A stretch of 64,000 bases of DNA from Comamonas terrigena NBRC 13299 (GTDB taxonomy: Bacteria; Pseudomonadota; Gammaproteobacteria; Burkholderiales; Burkholderiaceae_C): assembly GCF_006740045.1 (NCBI RefSeq), contig NZ_AP019749.1, positions 1 to 64,000 of the forward strand, in the 5' to 3' direction. Position 1 is the stretch's first letter. Each line of letters starts with the position of its first letter. The position numbers and the translations under genes are program-made. Under the pieces are notes generated by a model. It was not told the DNA's origin. It was given only the letters and a program-made list of their open reading frames with translations, and ran no database searches. Below, piece by piece: positions 5,630 to 32,589 of this stretch.

Positions 5630-8600
5630 TCAGGTCTGATCCACCTTCAGGCGGCCATCGCTGAGCATCTGCTTGACCAGCTCTTCGGACGAGCTGCCCT
5701 GCAGCAGGTCCACGCCTTGCAGCGTGATCTGCTGGTCCACCTTGGAGATCAGCGAACCGGCATCGTCGCTGAAGGCGCCGTTGCTGGAGATGCGCAACAC
5801 GGTGTCCTCGCCCTCCTTGCTGAAGCTCAGGTACTTGCCCAGGTTGTCGGCGTTCTCGTTCTGCAGCAGATCGGCCAGATCCAGTACATCGTGGCCGTTA
5901 CCGAAGTCGGCCACGACGTCCTTGGCCGCCAGTGCCAGGCCCTCGCCACCGGCGTCGCCCTGCTTCCAGACAAAGATGTCATCGCCGTCGCCGCCGATCA
6001 GGGTGTCGTTGCCGGCCCCGCCGATCAGCACGTCATTGCCGCTGCCGCCTTCCAGGTGGTCGTTGCCTGCACCGCCGTGGAGGCTGTCGTTGCCAGCCCC
6101 ACCGCGCAGCACATCGTCGCCCGCACCACCCAGCAGGGTGTCGCTGCCGGCCCCGCCGATCAGGTTGCCATGGCTGCTGCCCGAACCGTCCAGCACCACG
6201 CCCGAGCCGCTCTGGCTGCTCAGGGTCAGGTCAAAGCTGCCGGAGATGCTCGACGACACATCGCTGCCATCCACGGTATGGGCCGTGAAACCGATCTGCA
6301 GGCCGTTGGCCGATGCGTTCTGGTCCGTCAGCGCATCCTTGGCCTGGACAAAGCCCAGCTGGTCCATATCCGTCTGGGACAGACCGGTCAGCGTGTAGGT
6401 GTCCGTGGCCTGGTCGTAGCTGGCGGTGTGCAGGGTGCTGCCCACATAGAAGCTGGCGTGCTCACCCAGACCGGTCAGGGTCAGGGTCACCGTCTCGAGC
6501 GAGCTGTCGCCCGTGCCGGCGGACTGGCGGTCCTTCATGGCCAGGTTCAGGTTCAGCGCGATGATGTCGCCCTCGCGGCCGAAGGACTGTTCCACCACCG
6601 GCGTGTCGGTCTCAAAACCATCGGCCCGGGCAGCCACTTCCAGCTGGAAGGTCGCGGAGCTGACCTGTTGGTGCGCGGCATCACTGCCCTCACCGCTCAG
6701 CACACGCAGTGCCAGGTTTTCCACCGTGCCGCTCCAGTTCTGGGGCGCCTGGATGCTGATGACCGGCAGCTTGCCGCCATCGACCGGGATGCTCCAGCTG
6801 GAGCCGGTGTTGATGGCCTGCACCAGCGCACCGTTGGCGTCCGTGTAGTACACCAGGAAGCCATTGGGCAGGTTTTCCAGGATGGCGGTGTGGATCTGCT
6901 CGGAGCCGTCGGCGTCCAGCAGCTTGCCCGCGATATCCAGCGTGATGAGGCTGGTACCGGTCTGGTTTTCGCTGCCCTGGATGGTGCCGATGTCACCGTC
7001 CTTGTAGGGGGTGTTGGAGCCCACGTTGGTGAACTCGAAGCCGTTGTTGATCTGCTCCACCACCACGGTGCCACTGTCACCGTTGCTGTCGGCCCAGCCT
7101 TGCGAGCTGGTCCAGTCCGGCGCATTTTGCTCCTTGCTCTGGACGATCACTTCCACTTCCAGGCTGCCGTTGACGTATTTCTGCGCCGCATCGGGCTGGT
7201 AGTGCAGGCCCACGATGCTGGTGCTGCTGCCCGTCAGCAGCGCCTGCTGGGTCGCGGCATCCAGCGGCAGCTGGTAGCTGCCGTCCGCCTGCTGGACCAG
7301 CTCGGTCGTGCCGTAGAACAGCTTGCCGCCGCTGAAGCCATCGCCCTCGGTCAGCTTGATGGTCAGCGTGCCGTTCAGCAGCGACGGACCATCCACGCCG
7401 CGCGCGATGTCGATTTGGATCGCAATGTCGCTGCCTTCCTTCGGGCGGTCGCCGGTCGGGCTGCCATCGGCATCGGCTGCCGACAGCACCACGGCGGTGC
7501 TGACCCCATCGGTCTCGGGTGCCAGGGGCAGCGTGTCGTGGACCTTGACCACGGTCTGCTCGCCGGTGGAGACCACATGCCCGGCCATGGTGGCGTCGAT
7601 CTGCATGCCACCGAAGTGGTCGTTCAGATCGGCCGGCGGTGTGACCACCACCTCGCTCAGCAGGGCCTGCAGCTCTTCGGTGGTCTTGGCCGTTCCGGAG
7701 ATCAGCCACAGTTCCTCGGCGCCATCGCCGCCCACCTTGATGGCAGTCAGCGTGTGGCCGTCCTGGACGATGGTGGCGCCAGCCGGCAGCTTGAGGCTGA
7801 GCGTGAACGCCACATCCTGGCCGCTGGGGTTGTCGCTGATCGTCGCCTGGAACAGCTGGTCCAGGGTGAAGGCCGTGTCTTCCTGGCCGGTGAAATCCGG
7901 GTTGCGCGCAAAGTCCAGCTGCACGGCTTGGCCAGGCTGCCCGCCGCCGGTGAGGTCGGCCTGCAGCTCGTACTGCACGGAAGCGTTCGAGACGTTGCTG
8001 GCTCCTGCATCTTGGCTGAAGACTTCGATGCCGATCGTGGCATGGGCCTGGCCGGACAGTGCGGAGCCTGCCGTGAAGGACAGCTGCGCCTGGACGTCAC
8101 CGCCTTGGACGCTCGCCTGGAACTGGGCCAGCTGCGAAGGCGTCACCTCGATCACCCACTTGCCGCTGTCCAGCTGGTGGGCCACACCCACCTGCGTGCC
8201 ACCGATGCTCAGTCCATCGACCGTCAGGCCGTTGGGCACGCCGGTCACCAGCACCTGGATCAGGGATTCGCTGCCATCCTGGTCGGCCGAGCTCAGCACA
8301 ACGCCCACCTGGAAGTTGCCTGTGCTCTCCAAAGTCACCAGCGGCACGGTGCCGGAGGTGTCGGTGTTCAGGCTGGCGCCACCGCTGGTGATGCCATCGA
8401 GCTGCAGACCCACCTCGTCGGTGACCGGGGTCACGTGCAGGTGGTAGTCCTGGGGTTCACCCACGGTGGTGACCGGGGCCACGGAGCCGTCGCTGGAGGC
8501 ATCGGTCACCTCGTACTTGACGGTGAGCTTGAGATCCGGCGCATTGGCCTGGTTGTCGGCCTTGTTCTCGGTGATCGGCAAGGCCGTCACCTGACCGGCC

Positions 8601-11600
8601 TGGGTGGCATCCAGCACGTACCAGTCGTTGCCCTGGGCATCGGTGACGATCGCCACCGATGCGGAGTCGATGGGCTCGCCGTTCAGGAACAGCTGGAAGC
8701 CCTGGGATTCGAAGTCCTCGACCTTGATGTGCACATGGGTCAGGCTTTCGTTCTCGCCTTGCGGTGTCTGGATCGAGAAATCGAGCGCAGATTCACGGTC
8801 CTCGTACAAGGTGGCGTGCTGGTTGCCCACCGACTCGGGCGAAGGCGTGATGGTAGCCACCAGGGTTTCCGTGGCGTGGCTCTTCCAGTCGCCGTCGTTC
8901 TCGGTGGTGACCGGGGTCACCTGCACCGACACCGTGCCGCTGAAATTCTCAGGACCGGTGATGGTGATGGCCTTGAGGGCGGCTTCGGAATCCACGGCCC
9001 AGACGCGGTCCGCACCCGTGCCACCCAGATAGCGCGCGCCTTCCAGGGTGAAGCCTTCGGGCAGGCCGGTGATGCGGAAGCTCAGCTTTTCCGAACCATC
9101 GGTGTCCGCCTGCTGCACGCTCTGGATCAGATCGCCCAGCTGGATCTTGGCAGCGCCGCCGTCCAGGTCCGCTTCCGTGTAGGTGTGCGGCTTGGCCGCC
9201 ACGCTGGCTTCGTCGGCCACACCCACGACCTTGACCGGCAGGTTCTGCGTCTGGCTCCAGGCACCGGTGCTGGTGTCGAAGCCCTGCAGGGCGTCGACCG
9301 CCTGGGTCTTCACCTCCAGTGCAAAGTCGGCATTGCTGTTGACCGGGGGGGTCACGCTCAGGCCGGCGCTGGTCTGGTAGTCGGTGATCACCACCGACCA
9401 GGATCCACCCTGCGACGTGACGGTGATGCCCGGCACGCCCGTGGTGCTGCTGGTGATTTCCAGCCCGCCGTAGTGCAGGCTGGCGCCGGCAGGAATCTGG
9501 GCAATGCTGACGTTGAAGGTTTCCGAGCCGTCCGTGCTGGACGGACGGATCGTCAATGCAATCGCCGTGTCTTCCAGGCCTTGTGCCGGTTGCACCGACA
9601 GCGCGGCCAGGTCGGCATCCGGCGCGACGTGGATGGTCAGGCTGCCCGCATCGGAGATGGCGGTATCGGCCACACCGGTCTCGGTGTCGTCGTCGTAGTC
9701 ATAGGTCTTGGCCTGGAACTGGACCTGGAAGGTGCCCGCATCATTCAGCGGAGCCTGGAACGTGAGGCTGGACAAGGCCGACAGCGGCACCTCGATCGGG
9801 GTGCCCTGGTAGGTGGCGCTGCCTCCATTCCAGGTGAAGACGGTGCCGATGGCAGGGCTGCTGCCCAGACCGTCTTCCGACAGCTTCACCGGCGTCAGCA
9901 GCACGGTGGTGGTTTCGTCCTGGTCCTCGTTCTTCCAGCCGGCCTGGTTCAGCAGGTCCGTGGCTTCGATGTTCAGGTTGAACACCGTGTCTTCCTTGCC
10001 CAGGGCCGCATAGGTGTGGTCCGTGGTGGGCACGGTCAGGTCGGCCTGGCCGTTGTGGTCCGTATCGCCAGCGGCGGTGCTTTCGGCCACCGGGGTCACG
10101 GTGATCTGCACCGGCTTCTGCACCGTCACCTCATCGCTGGTGTCTGCACCACCCGTGACGTCGGCATTGCTGTCCACCGTGGTGATGGACAGCTGCACCG
10201 TGGCGTCCTTGCTGCTGTGTGCTGGCGGGGTGAGCGTGAACTGGCCCAGCGCCAACTCGCGGCTAGCTTCGGAACCTGCCGTGAACTCGATCACATAGGG
10301 GTCGGCAGTGGTGCCGGAGCCCGTGACCGTCCAGACCGCATCGCCGGCCGTGCCCGCAGCCGGCTGGCCGCTGAGCGTCCAGTCCTGCGGCAGCTCGAAC
10401 TGCACCTTGGTGATGACTTCGGTGCCACCGGCCGTGCCGCTGTCGGTCACCCGCACGCCGGCGAGGAACGCGACTTCGGTGTCTTCTGCAATCGCTTGCG
10501 GATGGGTCACGACCACATCCCCGGCGACCGGCTCGACGTGCAGATTCAGGGTGACGGAATCGCTCAGCACCACGCCATTTTCCTGCGCCCCATTCGGGTC
10601 CAGGTCCTGGGCCTTGAGCGTCACCGTGATGCCGGTGATGTCGCCGCTGAAGTCCTTGGGCGGTGTCACGATGATGTCCGGCAGGCTGCTGGCATCCTTG
10701 CTGGTGATCTCCACCTTCACCACCTGGGTGGTGCTGGTGATCAGCGTGCCGTTGACCGTGCTGCCCACGGGCAGGCCCGTGACTTCCAGCCAGCGGTGTT
10801 CGCTGCCATCCACATCGGCCTGGGTGTTGCCATCGGCGCCGGTATCCAGGCTGACCTTCAACAGCGGTGTCAGGTTGTAGCTGCTGTCTTCCTTGACTGT
10901 CAGGTCGTGACTGTCCTTGCCGTCGATCTTCAGCTCGATCGGGTCGGTCACCGCATGCACCTTCACATCCACCGTGGTGGAACCCGTCTTTCCGTCTACG
11001 CTGCTGAGCTTGTTGCCGCTTTCGTCCACCTCATAGCTGGTCACTTTGACCGTGACCTTGAAGTTGGCGGCATTTTCCGCCGGCGGCAGCACCTGCAGAG
11101 CCTCGAATTCGGCGGTGGTCATCTGCAAGACGCCACTGGCGCTGGCGGTGTGGTTGCCATCCGTGAGCACAATGCTGACCGCGTTGCCGCTGGTGAAGGT
11201 GTAGACCACGTTGCCATTGGCATCCAGCAACTGTGCGCCTGCCGGGAAGCCGCTGAGCGTGATGGGACCCAGGCGCTCGGGGTTGTCACCGGCGCCGGTC
11301 CCGTTCTGGTCGCTCGCATCGCTGGTCGTCGGGGCCTTCAGGCCCAGGTGCACAGCGGTGTCTTCATTGGTGGTCGCAGCGGCCAGTTTGTCCAGTACCG
11401 GCGCATCGGCCACGGCCTTGACCTGTACCGTCACCGTCCCAGGGACCGGCGAACCATCGTCCCTGACGATCGAGTACTTCAGTTCATCGGCGGCATACTG
11501 GCCGTTGCCTTGCAGCTGGTTGCTGTAGTTCGCGCTGGGCACATAGGTGATGCTGCCGTCCTTGTTGACGGTGACCGTGCCCTGCAGGCCATGGCCTGTG

Positions 11601-14600
11601 GCGTACACCGTGCTGCCATTGGCACCCGGTGTGCCCTGCAGCACCGTGACGCCATCGGCCGCCAGAATGCGGATTTCGCTGGCCGCCACGTCAGCCCCCA
11701 GGCTGAACTTGTTGTCTGCCGTACCGGCGCCGCTGTCTTCGGTCACGGTAATGGTCTGGGAGGCGCGCTCCACATCGTCCACCACGCTGACCTGGAAGTT
11801 GCCGCTGGCGGTGTCGCCATCGCTGTCACGGGCCTCGAAGCTGATGGGCAGATCCAGCACATTGACCTGCTGGCCGTTGCCATCCACATGGTCCAGCGCA
11901 CCCGTCAGGGTGAACTTGTAGCCGGCCTGGTTGGTGCCGGCGTTGGTGATTTCCAGGCGGAAGACCTCCGCGCCGCCCACACCGGCCGTGGCGATGATCT
12001 TGCCGTCCGCACCCAGGGTGATGACCAGGGCGGTGCCGTTGGAGCTCAGCCCCAGGGCCTGCAACTGGTCGGCCGTGGCCTGGGTGAAGTAGGCCTTGGC
12101 GCCGCTGGCGTTGTCGGCACCAAAATCCACCGCCAGGCTGCCCGTGAACACGGTCAGGGCGCTGTTGGCCTCAGTACCGGTGGCCAGGTTCTTTTCTGCC
12201 ACTTCGGCATTGGTCGGGCTGCCGATGGTGGGGCCGTCATCGGTGAAGACCAGGTTGGCCCCGATATTGACGGTGGTGGTGTGGCTGGCCTTGTCACCAT
12301 CCTTGTCGGTGATGGTGGCCGTGCCCGACAGCTTCACCAGGCCGTCCAGCAGGCTTTGCGTGTCGCTGCTGTAATCGCTGCTGTCCTTGCTGTCATGGTC
12401 GATGGCACCGGTCTGCACCAAGGTGACCTTGCCCGTGGCATCCACCGTCACACTGAACACCACCTTGCCGGTGGTTGCATTCCCGCCCGTGACGCCCACG
12501 ATCTCGCCATTGGCCTTTTGGTACAGCAGAATGCTCTGGCCGCCGCTCTTCAGGCCCGAGTCCGCGCCGTTGTCCACGGCGAGCTTGTAGCTCCAGGCCA
12601 CCGCACCCTTGGCGCCATCGGCGCCGTAGTCGGCGCTCTTGACCACAAAGACCGCTGCGAAATCCATGCTGGCCTTGTCCGGTGTTCCCGCTTGCAGATC
12701 GGCGTCATCGGTGGTCAGTGTGGGTTCGGCCGCGCCCACTTCCGTCACGATGGTCGGCACATCGTCAATCACCTGCACGCCCAGCGTGCCCGCGGTGGAC
12801 ACCGTGCCCGTGCCATCGGCGCCCTTGGCAATCACTTCGAGCGCAATGTTCTTGAGCGCATCGTTGGTGCCCTGGACTGATGCATGGGTCTGGGCCTGCG
12901 TCAGCGTGTAGGTGTACTGCACATCCCAGGCCACCTCCATGCCATCGGCCGTGGCCGTTGGCGTGAAGCCGGTGATCGTCAGCACGCCATGGCCGGCCAC
13001 CGTGATGGCAATGCCATCCGTGCCCAGGTCTTGCAGATCGGCCAGCGAAATGGTGGTGCCGTTGATCTTGATGCTGTCCAGTCCCGAGCCAGCCGTCACC
13101 TTGAGCGTGCCGTGCGCGCTTTCGCTGTCGTCGGTGGTGCTGGTCAGGCCCTTTTCATTGACCGTGACCTGGCCCTTGATGGCGGCACCGTTGCTATCCA
13201 CGACCGTGAGGGTGGGCTTGTCCACCACCGTGCTGCTGACGCTGGACTGGGTCGCGCTGATCTGCAGGTCTTCGAAGCCCTTGTTGCTGCCGCCATTGTC
13301 TTGCACGGCCGCGATGGTCGCAGTCAGCGGCTCGCGGTATTCCACCTGGGTGTCCACCAGCGTCGTCACCGTGAAAGACGGCGCTGCGGTTTGCCCGCCG
13401 GCAATGGTCACGGTGGGGGGCAGGTTGTTGACATCGGCGCCGTTGGCGGCCGCACCGCTCCAGTCCAGTGTCACGGTCACGTTCTTGCCTGCGGCCACGC
13501 TGACCGGATCGCCGTTGCCGTCGACCAGGCGCACGGTGTAGACCAGGGCGCCGCCCTCGAACACGGCCGATTGGTCCACGCTGATCTGCACATAGACAGG
13601 ATCGCTGTCGTCCAGGATAGTGGTCTTCACCGGGGTGTCGTCTGCCACCAGGTGCTCCAGCGCACCGGTGGTGCCTGCATTGGCTTCGCTGATGGATTCG
13701 ATGTGGTTGCTGATGCTGTCCGCTTCCAGGAACACATCATCGCGGTTCACCGCCACCGGGTCGGAGACGCCCGAGGCGCTGCCAGCGGCAATGGTGATCA
13801 CCTCGCCATTGGCCAGGGTCACGGTGATGGCGTTGTTCGTGGTCACCGGCTTGCCGGCGGCATCGACCAGGCTGGCCGTGTAGGTGATGGAGCCGCCGTC
13901 TTCGGTGGTCGACGTGGTGGCTGTCAGCTGCACGGTCACCGTGTCGGCATCGTCCTGCACCTGGGTCGAGGTGGTGCTGCTGGTGTCCAGCGCCTCGTAA
14001 TTGCCGCCTTCAGCCTGGGCAATTTCAAACTGCTGGCCTTGTGTGCCTTGCAGGTAGCCATCGTCAGGGCGGGAGTCGGTGAGCACCGAGCCTGTGAGCT
14101 CGCCCACCTTGATGGTGATGGTTTCGCCGGTCTTGAGCGTGATGACCAGATCCGAGCCCTGGGGCGCCTTGTCCACAGTGGCGGTGACCGTGATCTTGCC
14201 GCCTTCGGTCACCTGTGTATCGGCGCTGAGCACGATCTCGGTGGGGTCCTGGTCGTCCACCACATTGGTGCTGGTGGTGCTGGTGGTATCCAGACGGTCG
14301 TAGCCGCCGCCCGTGGTGGAACCGACTTCAAAGAGATGCTGGTCCGTACCCTGCACATAGGCATCATCCGTACGGGTGGGAATCTCCACCGAACCCGAGG
14401 TTTCGCCGACCCGGATGACGATGACCTCTCCGGTCCTGAGCGTGATGACCAGATCGCTCCCGCGGGGTGCACGGTCCACGGTGGCAGTCACGATGATCAT
14501 GCCGCCTTCCGTCACCTGCTGCTGTGCGCTCAGGGTCAGTGTGCCTTCGTACAGCGGCGGCAGCGTGGTGCCGGCCGCACCGCTCAGGCGGTCTTCCACC

Positions 14601-15043
14601 ACGTCGCTTGCGGGACGGGGGTAGGCCAGCGCCAGCGGTGTAGTGGCTTCCAGCACGCTGGCCAGACGCACAAAGGTGTGGTCACCACCACCACCACCGG
14701 CATTGGTTGCGGCAGTGGGATCCAGCTCGGCCAAGGGATCCTGGCCGTTGTTGATGGCGGCAATCAGGTTCTCCACTAGCGGATCGACCGCGGTGGGCAC
14801 GGCGGCCTCCGCGGCCGGAATGTCTTCGAACACATCCGGGCTCAAGGCCACATCCTGGTTCTCGCCCAGGACCAGCGGTGGCTGCCCGTCGGCCTGCAGC
14901 ACCACGGTGCTGCCCGAAGCGGTCACGACCTCCGCATCGGCGGGAATACGCATACCTTGGCGCAATGGCGTGAGATTGCCATCCGCATCACGAACCCAGG
15001 CCTGGCCTGTCAGCTGTGTCACCAGCACGGGAGTACTTGCCAT
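5630..15043 (-). CDS. Giant LapA-type RTX adhesin (type I secreted, retention module)
   Basis: This encodes a 3137-residue surface adhesin. Residues 1-75 resemble the LapA retention module (QLTGQAWVRDADGNLTPLRQG, then VVTASGSTVVLQADG). They are followed by a TAAT at 110-113 in front of a Gly run, where LapG-type proteases normally cut at a TAAG-like site. LapA-type Ig-like repeats (VTEGGxITVTATVDxAPxGSD) fill about residues 165-440. Long cadherin/VCBS and T1SS-143-like repeats follow. About six to seven RTX nonapeptides (GGAGNDxLxGG) lie at 5964-6160, ahead of a type I secretion C-terminal domain. The start has GAAAG six bases upstream. No lapBCE transporter and no lapD/lapG lie in the window. 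Three diguanylate cyclases lie within 15 kb. Function in biofilm attachment is inferred from the family. Confidence 0.93.
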   Translation of the reverse strand: MASTPVLVTQLTGQAWVRDADGNLTPLRQGMRIPADAEVVTASGSTVVLQADGQPPLVLGENQDVALSPDVFEDIPAAEAAVPTAVDPLVENLIAAINNGQDPLAELDPTAATNAGGGGGDHTFVRLASVLEATTPLALAYPRPASDVVEDRLSGAAGTTLPPLYEGTLTLSAQQQVTEGGMIIVTATVDRAPRGSDLVITLRTGEVIVIRVGETSGSVEIPTRTDDAYVQGTDQHLFEVGSTTGGGYDRLDTTSTTSTNVVDDQDPTEIVLSADTQVTEGGKITVTATVDKAPQGSDLVITLKTGETITIKVGELTGSVLTDSRPDDGYLQGTQGQQFEIAQAEGGNYEALDTSSTTSTQVQDDADTVTVQLTATTSTTEDGGSITYTASLVDAAGKPVTTNNAITVTLANGEVITIAAGSASGVSDPVAVNRDDVFLEADSISNHIESISEANAGTTGALEHLVADDTPVKTTILDDSDPVYVQISVDQSAVFEGGALVYTVRLVDGNGDPVSVAAGKNVTVTLDWSGAAANGADVNNLPPTVTIAGGQTAAPSFTVTTLVDTQVEYREPLTATIAAVQDNGGSNKGFEDLQISATQSSVSSTVVDKPTLTVVDSNGAAIKGQVTVNEKGLTSTTDDSESAHGTLKVTAGSGLDSIKINGTTISLADLQDLGTDGIAITVAGHGVLTITGFTPTATADGMEVAWDVQYTYTLTQAQTHASVQGTNDALKNIALEVIAKGADGTGTVSTAGTLGVQVIDDVPTIVTEVGAAEPTLTTDDADLQAGTPDKASMDFAAVFVVKSADYGADGAKGAVAWSYKLAVDNGADSGLKSGGQSILLYQKANGEIVGVTGGNATTGKVVFSVTVDATGKVTLVQTGAIDHDSKDSSDYSSDTQSLLDGLVKLSGTATITDKDGDKASHTTTVNIGANLVFTDDGPTIGSPTNAEVAEKNLATGTEANSALTVFTGSLAVDFGADNASGAKAYFTQATADQLQALGLSSNGTALVITLGADGKIIATAGVGGAEVFRLEITNAGTNQAGYKFTLTGALDHVDGNGQQVNVLDLPISFEARDSDGDTASGNFQVSVVDDVERASQTITVTEDSGAGTADNKFSLGADVAASEIRILAADGVTVLQGTPGANGSTVYATGHGLQGTVTVNKDGSITYVPSANYSNQLQGNGQYAADELKYSIVRDDGSPVPGTVTVQVKAVADAPVLDKLAAATTNEDTAVHLGLKAPTTSDASDQNGTGAGDNPERLGPITLSGFPAGAQLLDANGNVVYTFTSGNAVSIVLTDGNHTASASGVLQMTTAEFEALQVLPPAENAANFKVTVKVTSYEVDESGNKLSSVDGKTGSTTVDVKVHAVTDPIELKIDGKDSHDLTVKEDSSYNLTPLLKVSLDTGADGNTQADVDGSEHRWLEVTGLPVGSTVNGTLITSTTQVVKVEITSKDASSLPDIIVTPPKDFSGDITGITVTLKAQDLDPNGAQENGVVLSDSVTLNLHVEPVAGDVVVTHPQAIAEDTEVAFLAGVRVTDSGTAGGTEVITKVQFELPQDWTLSGQPAAGTAGDAVWTVTGSGTTADPYVIEFTAGSEASRELALGQFTLTPPAHSSKDATVQLSITTVDSNADVTGGADTSDEVTVQKPVQITVTPVAESTAAGDTDHNGQADLTVPTTDHTYAALGKEDTVFNLNIEATDLLNQAGWKNEDQDETTTVLLTPVKLSEDGLGSSPAIGTVFTWNGGSATYQGTPIEVPLSALSSLTFQAPLNDAGTFQVQFQAKTYDYDDDTETGVADTAISDAGSLTIHVAPDADLAALSVQPAQGLEDTAIALTIRPSSTDGSETFNVSIAQIPAGASLHYGGLEITSSTTGVPGITVTSQGGSWSVVITDYQTSAGLSVTPPVNSNADFALEVKTQAVDALQGFDTSTGAWSQTQNLPVKVVGVADEASVAAKPHTYTEADLDGGAAKIQLGDLIQSVQQADTDGSEKLSFRITGLPEGFTLEGARYLGGTGADRVWAVDSEAALKAITITGPENFSGTVSVQVTPVTTENDGDWKSHATETLVATITPSPESVGNQHATLYEDRESALDFSIQTPQGENESLTHVHIKVEDFESQGFQLFLNGEPIDSASVAIVTDAQGNDWYVLDATQAGQVTALPITENKADNQANAPDLKLTVKYEVTDASSDGSVAPVTTVGEPQDYHLHVTPVTDEVGLQLDGITSGGASLNTDTSGTVPLVTLESTGNFQVGVVLSSADQDGSESLIQVLVTGVPNGLTVDGLSIGGTQVGVAHQLDSGKWVIEVTPSQLAQFQASVQGGDVQAQLSFTAGSALSGQAHATIGIEVFSQDAGASNVSNASVQYELQADLTGGGQPGQAVQLDFARNPDFTGQEDTAFTLDQLFQATISDNPSGQDVAFTLSLKLPAGATIVQDGHTLTAIKVGGDGAEELWLISGTAKTTEELQALLSEVVVTPPADLNDHFGGMQIDATMAGHVVSTGEQTVVKVHDTLPLAPETDGVSTAVVLSAADADGSPTGDRPKEGSDIAIQIDIARGVDGPSLLNGTLTIKLTEGDGFSGGKLFYGTTELVQQADGSYQLPLDAATQQALLTGSSTSIVGLHYQPDAAQKYVNGSLEVEVIVQSKEQNAPDWTSSQGWADSNGDSGTVVVEQINNGFEFTNVGSNTPYKDGDIGTIQGSENQTGTSLITLDIAGKLLDADGSEQIHTAILENLPNGFLVYYTDANGALVQAINTGSSWSIPVDGGKLPVISIQAPQNWSGTVENLALRVLSGEGSDAAHQQVSSATFQLEVAARADGFETDTPVVEQSFGREGDIIALNLNLAMKDRQSAGTGDSSLETVTLTLTGLGEHASFYVGSTLHTASYDQATDTYTLTGLSQTDMDQLGFVQAKDALTDQNASANGLQIGFTAHTVDGSDVSSSISGSFDLTLSSQSGSGVVLDGSGSSHGNLIGGAGSDTLLGGAGDDVLRGGAGNDSLHGGAGNDHLEGGSGNDVLIGGAGNDTLIGGDGDDIFVWKQGDAGGEGLALAAKDVVADFGNGHDVLDLADLLQNENADNLGKYLSFSKEGEDTVLRISSNGAFSDDAGSLISKVDQQITLQGVDLLQGSSSEELVKQMLSDGRLKVDQT
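5964..6160 (-). repeat. RTX calcium-binding nonapeptide repeats in the adhesin gene
   Basis: Tandem copies of GGxGxDxLx are encoded here (for example GGAGNDSLHGGAGNDHLEGG). On the DNA they appear as repeated GCC-GTTGCC-GCC blocks. RTX repeats bind calcium outside the cell and help fold proteins exported by type I secretion. Edges are approximate. Confidence 0.85.
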
Positions 15044-21123: not shown

Positions 21124-22021
21124 CCCCTCCCTGGGTCACGGATCCTCCACGCGCGCAGACCGGCAGACCGCATGGCCGGTGCGACCGCAGGCCACTTCGC
21201 GCGGGCAGGACCGCGCTGGTCCAGCCATATCCCGCCACCAATGCAAACCGTTTTGTATGGTTTCATATGAAATCATACAAACTGAAAACTCTGGTCCCGC
21301 CGCAGCTGAAACATGTTTTTCAGCCACTTCCGCATCAAATCCTTATTGAATCTATCTCAGACGCTACCTTTTTTGATAAGAGCGCTGTTACATTCCCTCC
21401 CGACTGCCTTTTTGGCAGGCAAATTGCACGGTGGGCATGGCCTGCCGTTGCCGGAAACTGAAAACGCATTGAAAACCGCTTTTCAGCGCCCCGTCCCTGC
21501 GGATTTTCACCCCACTGGGCCGCACCAGCACGGCAGCTTTTCCACACAAGATGTGAACACCCGCTTTCACCATTTTGTGGATAATTTTTTGGCCTGAATG
21601 GGCTGGGCATACGCCCCGCATGTGGATAACCATGCTCCCCCGACCTGTGCACAACATCTGTTTGATATGAAAAGATATTTTCAACACCCTGCGAATGTTG
21701 TTCCCAGGTATCAAGCGGCTATTCACAAACTTGTCCCAAGCCGCTAGGCTCTGCAATACCCCTCCCCACAGGCTGGCAGGCAGCGGTGCGGCAGGGATTT
21801 AGAGAGTGCTTGTCCACATGTGCCGCGAGGCTGCGACAATCGGTGAACGCAGCCGGATACCGGCTGCGTTGTATGGCATGCGGGGCTCCCTTGCATACAG
21901 CCTGCAATACGAGATTTGTAGTGTTTATTCATAAGATTTCACATCTTATCCACTACATATCCATGTATTTATTCATATAAAACACCGGTTTTCCCCCGCA
22001 AGACCGCTCTCCACACCCTCC
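21124..22021. other. Left DnaA-box cluster of the candidate origin region
   Basis: A 0.9-kb stretch without a gene, visibly richer in A and T than its neighbours towards dinG. It contains two exact DnaA boxes, TGTGGATAA at 21576 and 21621. Boxes with one change lie at 21538 (TTTTCCACA), 21646, 21719, 21810, 21925, 21946 and 21969. It also holds a 30-bp palindrome (21252-21281) and three copies of TGAAA-N6-TTTCA at 21307, 21470 and 21668. The AT-rich end next to dinG could unwind easily. It is interpreted as one half of a split origin or a DnaA-binding regulatory locus. Confidence 0.7.
21252..21281. promoter_or_regulatory. 30-bp near-perfect palindrome
   Basis: Two 15-base arms, starting TTTGTATG and ending CATACAAA, meet at a central TTTCATATGAAA with a single mismatch between the arms. 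It looks like a strong dimer-binding operator. It lies between the CMD-like gene and the left DnaA-box cluster, with no adjacent regulator gene. Its centre resembles parS with CACGTG changed to CATATG, so ParB binding is not expected. Confidence 0.55.
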
Positions 22022-24187
22022 ATGAGCCAGGAAAAATGGGCCGCGCTGGCCCTTGAATCGTTCGATTCCGTTGTCGCATCCATCCCCGGGTTCCGCAGCC
22101 GTGACGGCCAACGGCGCATGGCCGATCAGGTGGCGCGCACGTTCGCCCAGACCCAGCTGGGCAAAATCGAGGAAGGCGCTCCTGAGCCGAAAAAATCGAT
22201 CGCCGTGGTCCAGGCCGGAACCGGGGTGGGCAAGTCGCTGGCGTATTCGGTGCCCGCCATCAGCACCGCCCTGGCACGTGGCACGCGGGTGCTGATTTCC
22301 ACCGCCACGGTGGCACTGCAGGAACAGCTGGTGAACAAGGATTTGCCGGCCCTGGCGCAGAAAATGCCGGTCCCTTTCAAATTTGCGCTGGCCAAGGGGC
22401 GTGGTCGTTTTGTCTGCAAACTCAAGCTCGAGCGGCTGTCCAGCACCGGTGAGCACAGCGAGGAGGCCGATGACCTCTTTGCCGAAGAAGAAGCTGCCCA
22501 GCGCAAGGCCCGGCCGCCGGCCGAAAAAGAGGCGCGCATGCAGTTCTATGCCAGCATGGCCGACGCCCTGGCCACCGGCGAATGGGATGGCGACCGCGAC
22601 AGCCTGAAAACCCCGCCCGAGCCCGAGGCCTGGAGCCCCGTGGCCGCCGAAGGCAGCAGTTGCACCGGCAAGCACTGCCCGGTATTCAGCAGCTGCACCT
22701 ACTACGAACGGCGCAAGGACATGGTGGCCGCCCAGGTCATCGTTGCCAACCACGATCTGCTGCTGTCCTCACTGGGCGCCCGCCTGCTGCCCGAGCTGGA
22801 TAACTGCCTGCTGGTGCTGGACGAGGCCCACCACCTGCCGCAGACCGCCCTCTCCCAGTTCGCCTGCGAGATGGATTTGAGCCGCCTGCAGTGGATCGAC
22901 AAGCTCACCAGCCGGGCCCTGCGCGTGGGCCAGCTGATGGAAGTGGAGGACATCGCCGAGCTGCCCGGCCACAGTGCCGGCCTGCGCCAGCACCTGACGG
23001 ATCTGGCCCGCCTGGTGATGGAGATCTACGGCGACGCACTGAAGGGCCAGAAAGACAGCTGGGGCCCGGCCCGTGTACGGGCTCCACGCGGCGTTTTGCC
23101 GGAACCCCTGATCAACCCCCTGGCACAGGTCATGCACCACGCCAGCGGCTTTCTGGACGCCTTGCGGGCCATTTCCAAGGCCTTGCGCGCCGAGATCAAG
23201 GACAAGCCCGAGGAAGCCCAGCGCCTGTCCGCCCTGTATGCCCAGGTGGGCACCCTGGCACCGCGCCTGGAATCGGTGCACGACACGGCCCAGCTGTTGA
23301 GCCAGCAACCCGAGATGCAGGCCGACGGCAGCGCCCAGGTGCCCAATGCCAAATGGTTCACGCTGGAGATCGATGGCGACTACATCGTCGTCAAGGCCCA
23401 TGCCAGCCCCATCCTGCCGGGAGCCACGCTGCGCCACCACCTGTGGAGCCAGGTGCGGGGCGCTGTGCTGACCTCGGCCACCCTGACCAGCTGCGGCGGC
23501 TTCGACTTCTTTCTGCGGGAAGCCGGCCTGCACGGCGACGCCAGCGTGCAGACGCTGGAGGTGGCCAGCCCTTTCGACTACGCCGCCCAGGGCACGCTGG
23601 TGGCCCACCAGACCCAGGCCGACCCGCGGGAGGCCCAGGCCTTCACCGCCGAGATGGTGGACGCCCTGCTGAACGACCTGGCGCTGGTGCAGGCCGGCGC
23701 CCTGGTGCTGTTCACTTCCCGCGAGCAGATGCGCCAGGCCGTGGACGCCCTGCCCTCCCACATGCGCAGCTACGTGCTGGTGCAGAACGCCATGCCACGC
23801 ACCATGCTGCTGGCCGACCACCGCAGCCGGGTGGAGTCGGGCCTGCCCTCCATCATCTTCGGCATGCAGTCGTTTGGCGAGGGACTGGATCTGCCCGGCG
23901 CACTGTGCGAGTCGCTGTTCATCACCAAGCTGCCGTTTGCCCCCCCCGATGACCCGGTGGGCGAATCCCGTGCCGAGTGGCTGCGTACCAGCGGCCGCAA
24001 CCCGTTCAACGAGCTGGTGGTGCCAGCCACCGCCATCCGCCTGGCGCAATGGGTGGGCCGTGCCATCCGCACCGAGGAAGACCAGGCCCATGTCTACTGC
24101 TACGACAAGCGCCTGGTTGCCACCAGCTATGGCGCCCAGCTGCTCAAGGGCCTGCCACCGTTCACTCTGGCCAAGCGCGCAGCCTAG
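22022..24187 (+). CDS. dinG: ATP-dependent DNA helicase DinG
   Basis: A 721-residue XPD-like 5'-3' DNA helicase that unwinds R-loops, D-loops and forked DNA. Walker A QAGTGVGKS is at residues 64-72 and the DEAH box is in LVLDEAHHLPQ. Four iron-sulfur ligands are seen at C132, C214, C219 and C225, with the x4 and x5 spacing of E. coli DinG. The C-terminal helicase motif GRAIRTEEDQ is intact, and length matches E. coli DinG (716 aa). It sits between two gene-free, DnaA-box-rich stretches, an unusual setting noted under findings. Confidence 0.96.
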   Translation: MSQEKWAALALESFDSVVASIPGFRSRDGQRRMADQVARTFAQTQLGKIEEGAPEPKKSIAVVQAGTGVGKSLAYSVPAISTALARGTRVLISTATVALQEQLVNKDLPALAQKMPVPFKFALAKGRGRFVCKLKLERLSSTGEHSEEADDLFAEEEAAQRKARPPAEKEARMQFYASMADALATGEWDGDRDSLKTPPEPEAWSPVAAEGSSCTGKHCPVFSSCTYYERRKDMVAAQVIVANHDLLLSSLGARLLPELDNCLLVLDEAHHLPQTALSQFACEMDLSRLQWIDKLTSRALRVGQLMEVEDIAELPGHSAGLRQHLTDLARLVMEIYGDALKGQKDSWGPARVRAPRGVLPEPLINPLAQVMHHASGFLDALRAISKALRAEIKDKPEEAQRLSALYAQVGTLAPRLESVHDTAQLLSQQPEMQADGSAQVPNAKWFTLEIDGDYIVVKAHASPILPGATLRHHLWSQVRGAVLTSATLTSCGGFDFFLREAGLHGDASVQTLEVASPFDYAAQGTLVAHQTQADPREAQAFTAEMVDALLNDLALVQAGALVLFTSREQMRQAVDALPSHMRSYVLVQNAMPRTMLLADHRSRVESGLPSIIFGMQSFGEGLDLPGALCESLFITKLPFAPPDDPVGESRAEWLRTSGRNPFNELVVPATAIRLAQWVGRAIRTEEDQAHVYCYDKRLVATSYGAQLLKGLPPFTLAKRAA

Positions 24188-24620
24188 CGCCGTCTGGCGG
24201 CCTTCTGCGCCCCTCGCAGAAGGGGGCAATCGCTGTGCGATACCGCATGCGTGGCATGGCCGCACCATGTGCAACCGTTCCAGCGCCTCGGAGAGCGGCT
24301 GTGCCCGGTGCGTGCGCCTGGATCAACCTCTGCCTGTTTTTTCAGCAGGAAAACGCACGCGCCTCCCGCCATCCTCACCATGCACATGCCCGCCATGGGC
24401 TGTGCACAACTGTTTTTTCAACGCGCCCTGCCTTCGCATCCCAGCCGTGTCCCTGCGGCCACGGATCGGCCGACAGTGCTGCGTCAGCGTCATTGAATTT
24501 TTTTGAACATTCCGGTTTTCAGAGGCAAGTTGTCCAGTTATCCCATGCCTTGCATAACTTTCTGTGGATAAAAACCGCTGAATGTCCAAAGAAACGGCGG
24601 CATGGTCACGCCGATCCGGC

Positions 24621-24636: not shown

Positions 24637-24772
24637 AACCCAAGCAGTGCACGCGGCGAAGTATGCCGCTTTTCAGCGCACGGCCGTCTTCCGTTCCTCG
24701 AAAACCGGGGCTTTCCGTGCGGTCATGCCCTTTGTGGAGCCCCGATCTGGGAGTTCTCTCTATGACTTCTTC

Positions 24773-24830
24773 TTTATTTCAATGAAATAAATTAGTCGTA
24801 GTAGTAATGCACCGGTTTTTTTGTGGATAA
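24773..24830 (-). other. DnaA-trio unwinding module 1
   Basis: The AT-rich palindrome TTTATTTCAATGAAATAAA (24773-24791) overlaps AAATTAG. Five trinucleotides follow, TAG-TCG-TAG-TAG-TAA, at 24793-24807. A 14-nt spacer with GCACCGG leads to the exact DnaA box TGTGGATAA at 24822-24830. Read from the box strand the order is DnaA box, GC-containing spacer, trios, AT-rich DNA. This is the arrangement of the bacterial basal unwinding element described from Bacillus subtilis (3'-(G/A)A(T/A)-5' trios). Four of the five trios match that consensus. Confidence 0.72.
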
Positions 24831-25212
24831 CCCACTGAGTCCATGCTTTTTCAAGAGCTTGCATGGTGGAAAAACATGTGGGTCATGCACAAGTTCTGCT
24901 GTCCTCGCAACGGGGACAACTGCGCATATCCCTGGATTTTTGTGGAAAACCTATTTTTTCAAGGAAACTTGTCCACAGAAGGATCTTCCCTCTGATGTAA
25001 CGTAGTTTTAAGAGATTTTTATTGAAAACAAAAGGTATACAGCTATCAATTTTGATGTGAATAACTGAAAAGCCGAGGTTTACCAACAATCTGCCACCTC
25101 GGTGTTGGCAATCTGCTGGGCTCCAGAAACGACGGAAAAGTGGATTGAAAAAAACGCAACCGGAGTGGAAGGCATGAAAAACCGCGCAAACTTTGCGCGC
25201 AGATGTTGTTCC

Positions 25213-25269
25213 TATATTTAATTTTTTAAATTAGTAGTCATAGTAAGCACCGCCAGATTCTGTGGACAA
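25213..25269 (-). other. DnaA-trio unwinding module 2
   Basis: This is a second copy of the module, exactly 439 bp downstream of the first. AT-rich TATATTTAATTTTTTAAA leads into AAATTAG, then TAG-TAG-TCA-TAG-TAA at 25232-25246. A 14-nt spacer beginning GCACCG leads to the DnaA box TGTGGACAA (25261-25269, one change from consensus). Spacing of trios to box is identical to module 1, while the intervening sequence differs, which points to selection on the layout. Confidence 0.68.
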
Positions 25270-25507
25270 GTCTTCTTTTTCGTTGTATTTCAATGGTTTG
25301 GAGATTGTTCAAGCATGTGGTTGGTACCGGGCTGCTGCTGTCACCCGATTGGGTACAAGCTGAAAAAAACTTTCCAGACAGTGGATAAGTGCCGAGTTGC
25401 TCTTTTTTTCTGCCCATGCTTGTCCACAGGCCTGGAAAGCACTCGAACAGGCTCCAACCAGCCGGAACAGGCCTCCTGGTGTGGTGGAGGAGGGCTTCCT
25501 ACTGGAT

Positions 25508-25559
25508 GTAACTCGGTTACGAAAGTTTGAAATGTCGCCAAACTAGGTAACTGAGTTAC
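25508..25559. promoter_or_regulatory. Pair of GTAAC-N3-GTTAC palindromes
   Basis: GTAACTCGGTTAC (25508-25520) and GTAACTGAGTTAC (25547-25559) are two similar 13-bp palindromes 39 bp apart. Between them is another inverted repeat, AGTTTG-N9-CAAACT (25524-25544). A degenerate third copy, GTAACGTAGTTTT, lies near 24997. The arrangement suggests cooperative binding of a dimeric regulator at the right edge of the candidate origin. Confidence 0.5.
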
Positions 25560-25880
25560 TTTTTTTGTCTAAGTTGTTGTTTTATATAGAATCTCTGCCC
25601 CGGGCGGTTGCCGGACACGGAGCCTGCAGCTGCATGCGCCGTGGCAGAGCTGGCCCGAGCGTCCTGGTGGTGCATCGCTGCCACCAAGGGGGTGGACCCG
25701 TGGTGGCGGCAAGCGGGTCCGTAGAGGGTCCGTGCCAGGGGCTGGAAGGTGAAAAGAATTTTTCGCGCTGTGTGGGGGGGCTGCGCGGGAAAAAACCGGA
25801 ATGTGCTGCATGGGCGGCACATGCGGCCATGTGGCACATGTATGGCGGGCCTGCGGCTTCCGGGTCAAAACTGCAGGCAT

Positions 25881-25905
25881 AAAAAAAAGCAGGCACAAGG
25901 CCTGC
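25881..25905 (-). terminator. Terminator of the Spy-like gene
   Basis: On the minus strand GCAGG-CCTTGTG-CCTGC is followed by eight T residues. It lies about 55 bp beyond the stop codon of the minus-strand gene. Confidence 0.75.
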
Positions 25906-25960
25906 TGAAGAGGGTGGTGTCCCGGCTGGGCAACCGGGATGGCGCACGACCGAAACCGAT

Positions 25961-26536: not shown

Positions 26537-26824
26537 GGTGATGTCCTTTCCTTCAGGTTGAGGGGGACGCTGCAGCTTGGTTGCAGCGCTTGAATGCAAG
26601 TGTGGGGACTGTCTGTAAGCGTTCCATGTGGAAACCGTGATGCTGTGTAAAGTAATGCGAAGCCTGGAGACCCTCTGCACCCCGTAGCTGGCAGGGCAGG
26701 GTGGTCCACAATGGGCAAATGAGGGATTACCACGCCACCAGGTCGGCGTGGATAGCCATGGTTTGGATAAGGCGCAGCGCCGACGGAGGCGCTGCGCTGC
26801 ATGACACAGAAAAGAGGTTGCTGC

Positions 26825-27871
26825 GTGTTCAAGAACATGATCGTGTACCGCATTGCCGCGCAATGGCAGGGTGCACTGGAACAGATGGAAGAAGCGCTGC
26901 AAAAGACGCCTTTCACCCCCTGTGGAGCGACGCAGGAAAAGTCTTCCGGCTGGGTGCCACCGCGTGGCGAGGAGCATGGGCTGCTGGCCGAAAGCGTGGG
27001 TGGCCAATGGGTGATGCGCTATATGAGCGAGAGCAAGATGCTGCCCGCCAGCGTGCTCAACCGCAAGGTGGCGGAGAAGGCCGAAGCGATTGAAAAAGAG
27101 TTCGGCCGCAAACCGGGCAAAAAGGAAAAGCAGGAGCTCAAGGACGAAGCCAAGCTGGACCTGCTGCCCATGGCCTTCACCAAGCAGGGGGCCATGTGGG
27201 TCTGGCTGGATCCGCAGGCCAAGCTGCTGGTGCTGGACACCGGCGCCCAGGGCCGTGCCGACGAGGTGGTGACGCTGCTGGTTGAAAGCCTGCAGGGCTT
27301 TGGCGTGGCGCTGCTCGATACGCAGACCAGTCCCCAGGCAGCCATGGCGCACTGGCTGATCAGCCAGGAGCCGCCGGTGGGTTTTTCGGTGGACCGCGAA
27401 TGCGAGCTCAAGGCCGCGGACGAATCCAAGGCGGTGGTGCGCTACGCACGCCACCCGCTCGATATCGACGAGGTCAAGCAGCATGTGGAGCAGGGCAAGC
27501 TGCCGACCAAGCTGGCCATGACCTGGGACGACCGCGTGAGCTTTGTGCTGAGCGACACCCTGCAGGTCAAGAAGATTGCCTTCCTGGACAGCGTGCTGGA
27601 TGAGGCCGGCGATGAAGGCGGTTTTGACACCGATGTGGCGATTGCCACCGGTGAATTGAGCCGCCTGATTCCGGACCTGATCGACGCCCTGGGCGGTGAA
27701 GGCCGTACCGAGCTGGGCCAGGACCTGCCTGCAGCATTGCAGCCGTCGGGCTCGGGGACCGAAACCCTGGCGGTGCGCGTGGCCGGTGGCAGGCCGGCTG
27801 GGCAGGGCGGCAAGGTGACCGGGCCGGCCGAAGCCCCGGTGGACACCGATCCGCAGAGCATGCCGTTCTGA
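26825..27871 (+). CDS. rdgC: Recombination-associated protein RdgC
   Basis: A 348-residue protein that in E. coli forms a ring around DNA and restrains RecA. The family start MFKNMIVYRI is matched only if the GTG at 26825 is used. That GTG is preceded by AGAGG with 7-nt spacing, so it was preferred over the upstream ATG at 26801. The body (RYMSESKMLPASVLNRKVAEK, then SFVLSDTLQVKKI) is typical of RdgC. The C-terminal tail is longer and Gly/Pro-rich. It lies just beyond the candidate origin. Confidence 0.95.
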   Translation: MFKNMIVYRIAAQWQGALEQMEEALQKTPFTPCGATQEKSSGWVPPRGEEHGLLAESVGGQWVMRYMSESKMLPASVLNRKVAEKAEAIEKEFGRKPGKKEKQELKDEAKLDLLPMAFTKQGAMWVWLDPQAKLLVLDTGAQGRADEVVTLLVESLQGFGVALLDTQTSPQAAMAHWLISQEPPVGFSVDRECELKAADESKAVVRYARHPLDIDEVKQHVEQGKLPTKLAMTWDDRVSFVLSDTLQVKKIAFLDSVLDEAGDEGGFDTDVAIATGELSRLIPDLIDALGGEGRTELGQDLPAALQPSGSGTETLAVRVAGGRPAGQGGKVTGPAEAPVDTDPQSMPF

Positions 27872-32573: not shown

Positions 32574-32589
32574 GGTTTCACGTGAAACC
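32574..32589. promoter_or_regulatory. parS site 1
   Basis: GGTTTCACGTGAAACC contains the perfect parS core GTTTCACGTGAAAC. It is the partner sequence of the ParB encoded at 40386-41309. Confidence 0.9.

Follow-up and report, generated by a model that had tools for sequence, protein, structure and literature searches.

A probable oriC with two tandem origin units in Comamonas terrigena and its relatives

The chromosomal region between dinG and rdgC of Comamonas terrigena NBRC 13299 is, with high confidence, the replication origin oriC, and it comprises two origin units. The window analysed consists of bases 1-64,000 of the 4,673,011-base single-contig chromosome; the contig starts at dnaA, which is followed by dnaN and gyrB. 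The location, duplication, anatomy, spacing, conservation and old divergence of the two units are documented by sequence comparison. We propose, with moderate confidence, a twin-unit oriC in which unit 1 would be the main site and unit 2 a second, opening-competent one; the division of labour between the units is what we infer.

Location of the origin

Over the surrounding 124 kb, the cumulative GC skew is lowest at 24,780, a position within the AT-rich element of unit 1 and not elsewhere, in keeping with the preliminary description of this DNA. The 20-kb samples taken along the chromosome have a positive GC skew in 10 of 10 cases from 64 kb to 2.22 Mb and a negative one in nine of ten from 2.44 Mb to the end, the exception being +0.011. 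The 1.8-kb intergenic region contains eight DnaA boxes with at most one mismatch. When the 50-bp stretches of the 124 kb are ranked by stability, the AT-rich elements of both units are in the lowest four (the stretch at 24,758, for unit 1, is third); the least stable one lies elsewhere, at 21,931 upstream of dinG. The preliminary description had placed the duplex-opening part of the chromosome origin here, present twice, and the skew minimum, the boxes, the AT instability and the conserved spacing all point to the same reading.

The scans found no third module in the genome. Scanning of both strands for the trio-spacer-box arrangement gave exactly two matches in the 124 kb around the site, corresponding to both modules, and none in 17 other 20-kb stretches. 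The pattern TAG-N6-TAR-TAR-N14-TGTKGATAA, searched with at most one mismatch over the whole 4.67-Mb genome, matched twice on the forward strand and never on the reverse strand, hitting only these modules, and a reversed-pattern control over the same 4.67 Mb had no match. A sequence model of the unit, built from 50 units including both of the C. terrigena window, yielded two matches in the genome at E <= 0.01, with scores of 96.2 and 92.9 bits for units 1 and 2; the E. coli core scores 18.7 bits.

A different reading is that the true origin lies at dnaA, where four DnaA boxes with at most one mismatch, two of them perfect, are found within 800 bp upstream of the gene, and that the twin-unit region is a reservoir for DnaA. 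This reading is very improbable, and we rejected it because dnaA has neither the skew minimum, which is 24.8 kb away, nor a unit-model match; no trio module was found there either. Moreover, the units are intact in relatives although their distance from dnaA varies: 12 twin-unit genus genomes were searched for dnaA, and in the 11 that gave a reading (all but G030) it lies between 17.8 and 82 kb. The separation from dnaA of about 23 kb in C. terrigena, to which the preliminary description had called attention as unusual, stands as a distance; it is less unusual than supposed, since it is general in the genus and an oriC away from dnaA is also known from E. coli (PMC13220808). Between gyrB and the origin, a gene for a LapA-type RTX adhesin of 3137 aa (window 5630-15043, minus strand; PF20579, PF00353) contributes 9.4 kb to the dnaA-oriC distance in this window.

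The immediate neighbourhood contains several other elements. Judged by the dinG protein, the nearest named relatives are an Acidovorax-labelled metagenome-assembled genome (93%) and Comamonas kerstersii, C. aquatica and C. avium (85-86%). A second cluster of DnaA boxes occupies the AT-rich DNA upstream of dinG (window 21538-21954), with five boxes of at most one mismatch, two of them perfect; neither a trio module nor a unit-model match was found in this cluster. Where the fetched flanks of a dinG locus contain a trio module, the 1.5 kb upstream of dinG usually have two to six boxes; there is one in L077, L080 and L081 and none in L056 and L084. On the other side, an rdgC-like protein was recognised by eye in translations near the origin units of G313 and G194 too. 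Two mutually similar palindromes, GTAACTCGGTTAC and GTAACTGAGTTAC, lie right of unit 2 at window 25508-25560 and are perhaps a regulator site; little of them is retained in aligned relatives. The Rfam search of the window gave no match at the gathering score; a sub-threshold match to the SorX small RNA family (25881-25946, minus strand; 23.7 bits against a cut-off of 46.6) in the intergenic region is possibly a chance hit or a terminator. Farther right, 7-13 kb from the origin, sites at 32574, 35372, 37080 and 38197 resemble, with 0-2 mismatches, what we take to be the parS consensus.

Anatomy of the two units

The coordinates of the elements are compiled in Table 1, where they are named after the elements of E. 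coli oriC that we take to be DUE, R1, IHF site, R5M, R2 and R4. Plus numbers are offsets from the R1-like box, and the IHF-like sites were scored against WATCAANNNNTTR, presumably the IHF consensus.

Table 1. Features of the C. terrigena oriC region, with positions in the window
Feature	Position	Strand	Remarks
dnaA	1..1407	+	TIGR00362, 562.8 bits, cut-off 343.9; about 23 kb from origin
dinG helicase gene, left neighbour of origin	22022..24187	+	NF008729, 797.8 bits, cut-off 598
Extra perfect DnaA box left of unit 1	24563..24571	-	Partly conserved
Unit 1 AT-rich element, DUE candidate (TTCTTT...AAAT)	24770..24792	+	Read from sequence
Unit 1 DnaA-trios TAG-TCG-TAG-TAG-TAA	24793..24807	+	4/5 fit N-A-N
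Unit 1 spacer, 14 nt	24808..24821	+	Read from sequence
Unit 1 R1-like DnaA box, TGTGGATAA as read	24822..24830	-	Perfect TTATCCACA on - strand
Unit 1 IHF-like site TTTCAAGAGCTTG, +27	24849..24861	+	1 mismatch to WATCAANNNNTTR
Unit 1 R5M-like weak box, +55	24877..24885	-	2 mismatches; TG core conserved
Unit 1 same-orientation DnaA box, +119	24941..24949	-	1 mismatch
Unit 1 inverted DnaA box, +147	24969..24977	+	1 mismatch
DnaA box between units	25056..25064	-	1 mismatch; partly conserved
Unit 2 AT-rich element, DUE candidate	25209..25231	+	AT-richest 35-bp stretch of 124 kb (25213, 86% AT)
Unit 2 DnaA-trios TAG-TAG-TCA-TAG-TAA	25232..25246	+	4/5 fit N-A-N
Unit 2 spacer, 14 nt	25247..25260	+	Read from sequence
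Unit 2 R1-like DnaA box, TGTGGACAA as read	25261..25269	-	TTGTCCACA; 1 mismatch to E. coli consensus
Unit 2 IHF-like site TTTCAATGGTTTG, +27	25288..25300	+	1 mismatch
Unit 2 TGTGG at R5M-like position, +55	25316..25324	-	3 mismatches to box; read from sequence and alignments
Unit 2 same-orientation DnaA box, +119	25380..25388	-	1 mismatch
Unit 2 inverted DnaA box, +159	25420..25428	+	1 mismatch
rdgC, right-hand neighbour of origin	26801..27871	+	PF04381, 362.4 bits

Both modules of the preliminary description, each with an AT-rich block, five trinucleotides, a 14-nt spacer and a DnaA box in the same orientation, were found where it had placed them. The five trinucleotides are present in each module as it claimed, but one in each, TCG in unit 1 and TCA in unit 2, violates the N-A-N rule. 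GCACCG does occur in both spacers; its register differs between them, however, and it is not conserved in aligned relatives, nor is the palindrome that had been seen in the AT-rich blocks. The R1-like boxes of the two units are 439 bp apart and identically oriented, and no open reading frame of at least 80 codons was found between the units (24,831-25,208). Adjoining the spacer, unit 1 has three consecutive N-A-N trios, TAG-TAG-TAA. In unit 2, which was examined for the same run of three, two N-A-N trios are followed by TCA and then by two more; because TCA breaks the rule, only two consecutive rule-abiding trios stand beside the spacer. Altogether, unit 2 is the weaker one in C. terrigena, with one mismatch in the R1 box, the TCA trio and one mismatch in the +119 box. 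The 60-bp stretches at 21925, 48798 and 25006 are AT-richer than the AT-rich element of unit 2. The two units are only 52% identical in C. terrigena.

The arrangement of trios and box recalls the BUS of B. subtilis and its relatives, which consists of DnaA box, spacer and DnaA-trios and has a spacer limit of 16 nt (PMC8287927). With a spacing of 14 nt, the DnaA boxes of both units lie within this limit of the trios, and the modules also share with the BUS the TAG/TAA trios beside an AT-rich stretch and the same relative orientation. They differ from it in that the module is present twice and that each copy has one N-A-N-breaking trio. The published BUS program keeps one candidate in >99% of genomes, so that a second one would as a rule go unreported (PMC8287927).

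To describe conservation, 35 distinct unit pairs from genus genomes and named dinG loci were aligned, including L084 and L088, whose assemblies are of unchecked genus. The pair scan demanded a 14-nt spacer and same-strand pairs, so it is silent on orientation. Loci without a 14-nt-spacer pair were excluded (L077, L079, L081, L085, L093, L141, L146, L185, L186, L189 and L227); among them, L227 is without an origin, and the second units of L141/L189 (one genome) and L146 were found by other scans. The C. denitrificans-like loci have spacers of 9-14 nt. In the 35 pairs, conservation extends beyond the R1-like box in a matching pattern for both copies. The same-orientation box at +119 is present in 32 of the 35 first units and in as many (32/35) second units, and the inverted box is found at +147 in 32/35 first units and at +159 in 32/35 second units. 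Among the first units, 20 of 35 have an IHF-like site at +27 and 14 have none (at most one mismatch, +26 or +27); among the second units, 33 of 35 have one at +27. A site with at most one mismatch anywhere in 51 positions would arise by chance with a probability of 0.013 per unit. IHF-alpha is encoded in the C. terrigena genome (122.9 bits against the family cut-off of 120.25). At +55 the TG core is conserved in the alignment, with two mismatches in unit 1 and three in unit 2, whose box was absent from the scan allowing two mismatches. The TTCYTW-like start of the unit 1 AT-rich element also appears in relatives, and the second units of many relatives have five N-A-N trios, for example TAG-TAG-TAA-TAG-TAA. 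Conservation of the trios, spacing and boxes in relatives, a check named in the preliminary description, turned out in its favour.

Judging from these sequences, the duplication goes beyond the unwinding module alone and takes in a larger origin unit, similar to E. coli oriC. The preliminary description was right that an unwinding module is duplicated, and both copies are conserved; it had taken too narrow a view of what the duplication includes. Measured in the same way, E. coli K-12 oriC has an IHF site at +27 (two mismatches to the 13-mer), a box at +55 (R5M, two mismatches) and inverted boxes at +106 (R2) and +180 (R4). The units here share with it the IHF-like site at +27, possibly the weak box at +55, and an inverted box towards the far end. 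Compared to E. coli oriC, however, there are two units, a trio run takes the place of the 13-mers, and where E. coli has its two inverted boxes at +106 and +180, these units have a same-orientation box at +119 and an inverted one at +147 or +159. The Comamonas unit may work like E. coli oriC, whereas its layout is different.

Conservation and divergence in the genus and beyond

The genus set comprised 46 genomes that were at least 90% complete. A pattern scan found two matches 417-439 bp apart on one strand in 27 of them, one match in ten and none in nine, and a reversed-pattern control matched in one of the 46. Looser scans and the unit model revealed the second unit in all ten single-match genomes, and two full-length matches in G026, one of the nine that the pattern had missed. 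Two full units, about 366-439 bp apart, are present in 38/46 genomes. Another six (G006, G013, G017, G019, G031 and G067), which constitute a sub-clade, have a full first unit and a second one that matches only from about the R1 box on, such that its boxes are kept and its AT-rich element and trios are lost; the remaining two (G007 and G068) have a single unit match. Since six of 46 genomes are without the second AT-rich element and trios and two of 46 have one unit, two opening modules are not indispensable. Of this sub-clade, G013, G017 and G031 were searched for dnaA; the gene lies about 177-270 kb from the unit, and its open frame of 571-573 aa has its homology split in two pieces.

The first and second units fall into two classes, with an identity of 0.57 within and 0.49 between classes. 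Of the 70 units, 68 have a nearest neighbour of their own class, and 2/70 are misplaced in the best tree split (support 0.78); by these measures the division into classes appears to predate the genus. That the double unit stems from recent duplication or faulty assembly has a practically negligible probability; nothing was found in favour of this reading, and it was rejected on the grounds that the C. terrigena units are only about half identical and that both classes are common to the genus in separate assemblies.

Beyond the genus, the unit model matched 245 of 250 family genomes, representing 114 of 115 genera, with one to three matches per matching genome; some of these 250 genomes had supplied units to the model. 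Counted by hand, 83/250 have at least two matches (nine of these three) and 162/250 have one. Adjacency of pairs was read from the best 150 places listed, in which the second match may be partial. Same-strand pairs seen range from 267 bp (G170) to 11-13 kb (G088, G194, G267), and pairs seen in opposite orientation are 0.3 to 46 kb apart (G110, G205, G206, G278, G305). Three unit matches were also observed in L217 (G170) and in L214 and L279 (G078). In five genomes with kilobase-separated pairs, the same-orientation box is at +119 or +120 in 10/10 units and the inverted box at +159 or +160 in 9/10. The IHF-like site at +27 is found in 4/10 units of those pairs and in 8/22 over 11 other-genus family genomes. 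At the level of the order, 125 of 250 genomes were matched. Nine genomes of a second family (f8) were searched, and seven of them contain two or three matches that fall within about 1.5 kb: three in G346 and G504, two in G043, G435, G460 and G483, and, in G525, three in tandem within about 1 kb (at 274,949, 275,399 and 275,759). The dinG loci labelled Acidovorax and similar mostly are without a trio module in the fetched flanks, which suggests that their origin lies elsewhere in the genome.

Roles of the units and comparison with known origins

The GC skew across the 35 pairs is -0.083 left of unit 1 (positive in 0/35), +0.024 between the units (22/35) and +0.104 right of unit 2 (34/35), a skew over 430 bp being a weak witness. 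Twelve pair loci from other genera were compared by where the cumulative skew of the fetched stretch is lowest: this point is no more than 1 kb from unit 1 in seven (G077, G078, G131, G170, G251, G300, G313), nearer unit 2 in three (G231, G234, G262) and at neither in two (G043, G144). In seven genomes with units 3-11 kb apart, the skew at four-fold sites was split by gene direction; G206, with opposite orientation and 46 kb between the units, has no flank contrast and was left out of this count, and C. terrigena has no genes between its units to compare. Corrected for gene direction, the skew between the units resembles that of the right-hand side in G194 and G313, and for the most part in G078. 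In G088 the plus genes are right-like and the minus genes halfway, and in G262 the plus genes are nearer the left and the minus genes right-like. G131 and G290 are weak cases, in which the flanks are alike for plus genes and the few minus genes exceed the right-hand value. Variable columns between the units gave a noisy skew (-0.07 in one bin within unit 2), and the six genomes with a decayed second unit have no consistent skew (mid-region values -0.150 to +0.116). An equal firing of both units, read from the inter-unit skew (that of the 35 pairs; flat in G078 and G262), was dropped, as the gene-direction comparison puts much of this skew down to gene orientation. On the moderate evidence of the skew in the 35 pairs, the 12 loci and the gene-direction comparison, unit 1 is the likelier main strand switch, and a main start at unit 1 is compatible with use of unit 2 too.

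In the proposed twin-unit oriC, each unit would bind DnaA at its R1-like box and at the weaker boxes that follow, and an IHF-induced bend at +27 would turn the DnaA assembly towards the AT-rich element. Spanning the 14-nt spacer, DnaA would engage the trios on one strand; melting of the AT-rich element and loading of the replicative helicase would follow. Unit 1 would be the main starting point, and unit 2 an opening-competent reserve or co-initiating site that adds DnaA-binding capacity. Binding, bending, melting and helicase loading at the units are postulated by analogy with E. coli and B. subtilis; E. coli origin opening involves an IHF-bent DnaA complex (PMC13220808). By this analogy each unit carries the sequence elements that opening by DnaA requires; both can probably be opened, and both may fire. 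Several observations weigh against this full explanation, namely the weaker unit 2 of C. terrigena, the genus genomes with a decayed second unit (six of 46) or one unit (two of 46), the IHF-like site missing from 14/35 first units and found in only 8/22 units of other genera, a skew minimum that is not uniformly at unit 1, with mixed or weak corrected skew in G088, G262, G131 and G290, and the position of the least stable 50-bp stretch at 21,931.

An alternative is a single working origin, in which only unit 1 would be opened and unit 2 would be an accessory array that binds DnaA for titration, for ATP hydrolysis or as an enhancer, like datA or B. subtilis oriC1, with its AT-rich element and trios a historical leftover or in slow decay. 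The six genus genomes that keep the second box array without AT-rich element and trios conform to this reading, as do the far-apart units, where the skew switch is oftener at unit 1 (seven of the 12 loci; G194, G313 and mostly G078), and the weaker box and trios of the C. terrigena unit 2. However, unit 2 still has its trios, 14-nt spacer and AT-rich element in 38 of 46 genomes despite identities of 57% within and 49% between classes, and the C. terrigena unit 2 holds the AT-richest 35-bp stretch of the 124 kb. A pure binding array needs neither AT-rich element nor trios, and their retention speaks against it; we regard the single working origin as rather unlikely, if a serious contender.

The two units might also form one joint orisome. 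Each would load one helicase of the pair, and the two forks of bidirectional replication would start about 430 bp apart. The spacings in the 35 pairs are 392, 417, 419, 424, 426, 428-430, 435 and 437-439 bp, and this narrow range, with 428 or 429 bp in 19/35 pairs though the sequence between the units diverges, would suit such a machine. Its rigid version, with the distance set by helical phasing, was discarded, since no clear phase was seen by eye and the spacing varies widely outside the genus. Against a joint machine in general, the distance between same-strand units in other genera runs from 267 bp to 13 kb, some pairs are in opposite orientation, and 162/250 family genomes have a single match; in addition, units of the same orientation would not by symmetry yield opposite helicases. 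This arrangement is quite improbable, and the twin-unit oriC with a main unit 1 remains our preferred reading.

Compared to known systems, the twin units have a particular combination of features. In bipartite origins such as those of B. subtilis and H. pylori, one of two subregions has the DUE and a gene, usually dnaA, lies between them (PMC4285127 and PMC13220808). The Comamonas region similarly has two DnaA-box clusters in one origin region, but, unlike in the bipartite origins as described there, both units carry an AT-rich element and trios, and no gene is evident between them. Double origins have been proposed for A. fermentans, R. pickettii, Dehalobacter and Ochrobactrum, none of them then known to be in use, and P. 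aeruginosa has two autonomously replicating elements on one chromosome (PMC4403523). Each of those double origins is an isolated case, recognised from box clusters and the genes nearby; in A. fermentans two dnaA-flanked bipartite origins are close together, and in the others the two are 150-882 kb apart (PMC4403523). They share with Comamonas the two origin candidates per chromosome, whereas the Comamonas units are in tandem, have the same internal layout, are conserved in most of the genus and recur in the family. For chromosome 1 of Burkholderia cenocepacia, the exact origin is described as uncertain because its features are dispersed (PMC4948915), and the arrangement of dual helicase loading is described as not understood (PMC10721633). 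A search of titles and abstract openings, with most subscription papers outside its scope, returned no published twin-unit origin in the Comamonas group.

The unit model provides a sharp origin finder for the family, with 245/250 genomes matched and 162 of them once, some of these genomes having supplied units. Together with the genus pairs about 430 bp apart, relatives whose second unit is missing, decayed, kilobases away or inverted form a ready series on what an origin needs, in which once-per-cycle initiation with two openable sites and the loading of two helicases could be tested. The twin arrangement, kept in most of the genus, offers a natural test of whether a bacterial chromosome works with two origins. 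We tentatively consider it possible, though on balance we lean against it, that the chromosome of Comamonas and many relatives naturally operates with two oriC units (three in some genomes) that can be opened independently and of which either may start replication; if this is true, the rule of one origin per bacterial chromosome would fail for a large bacterial group.
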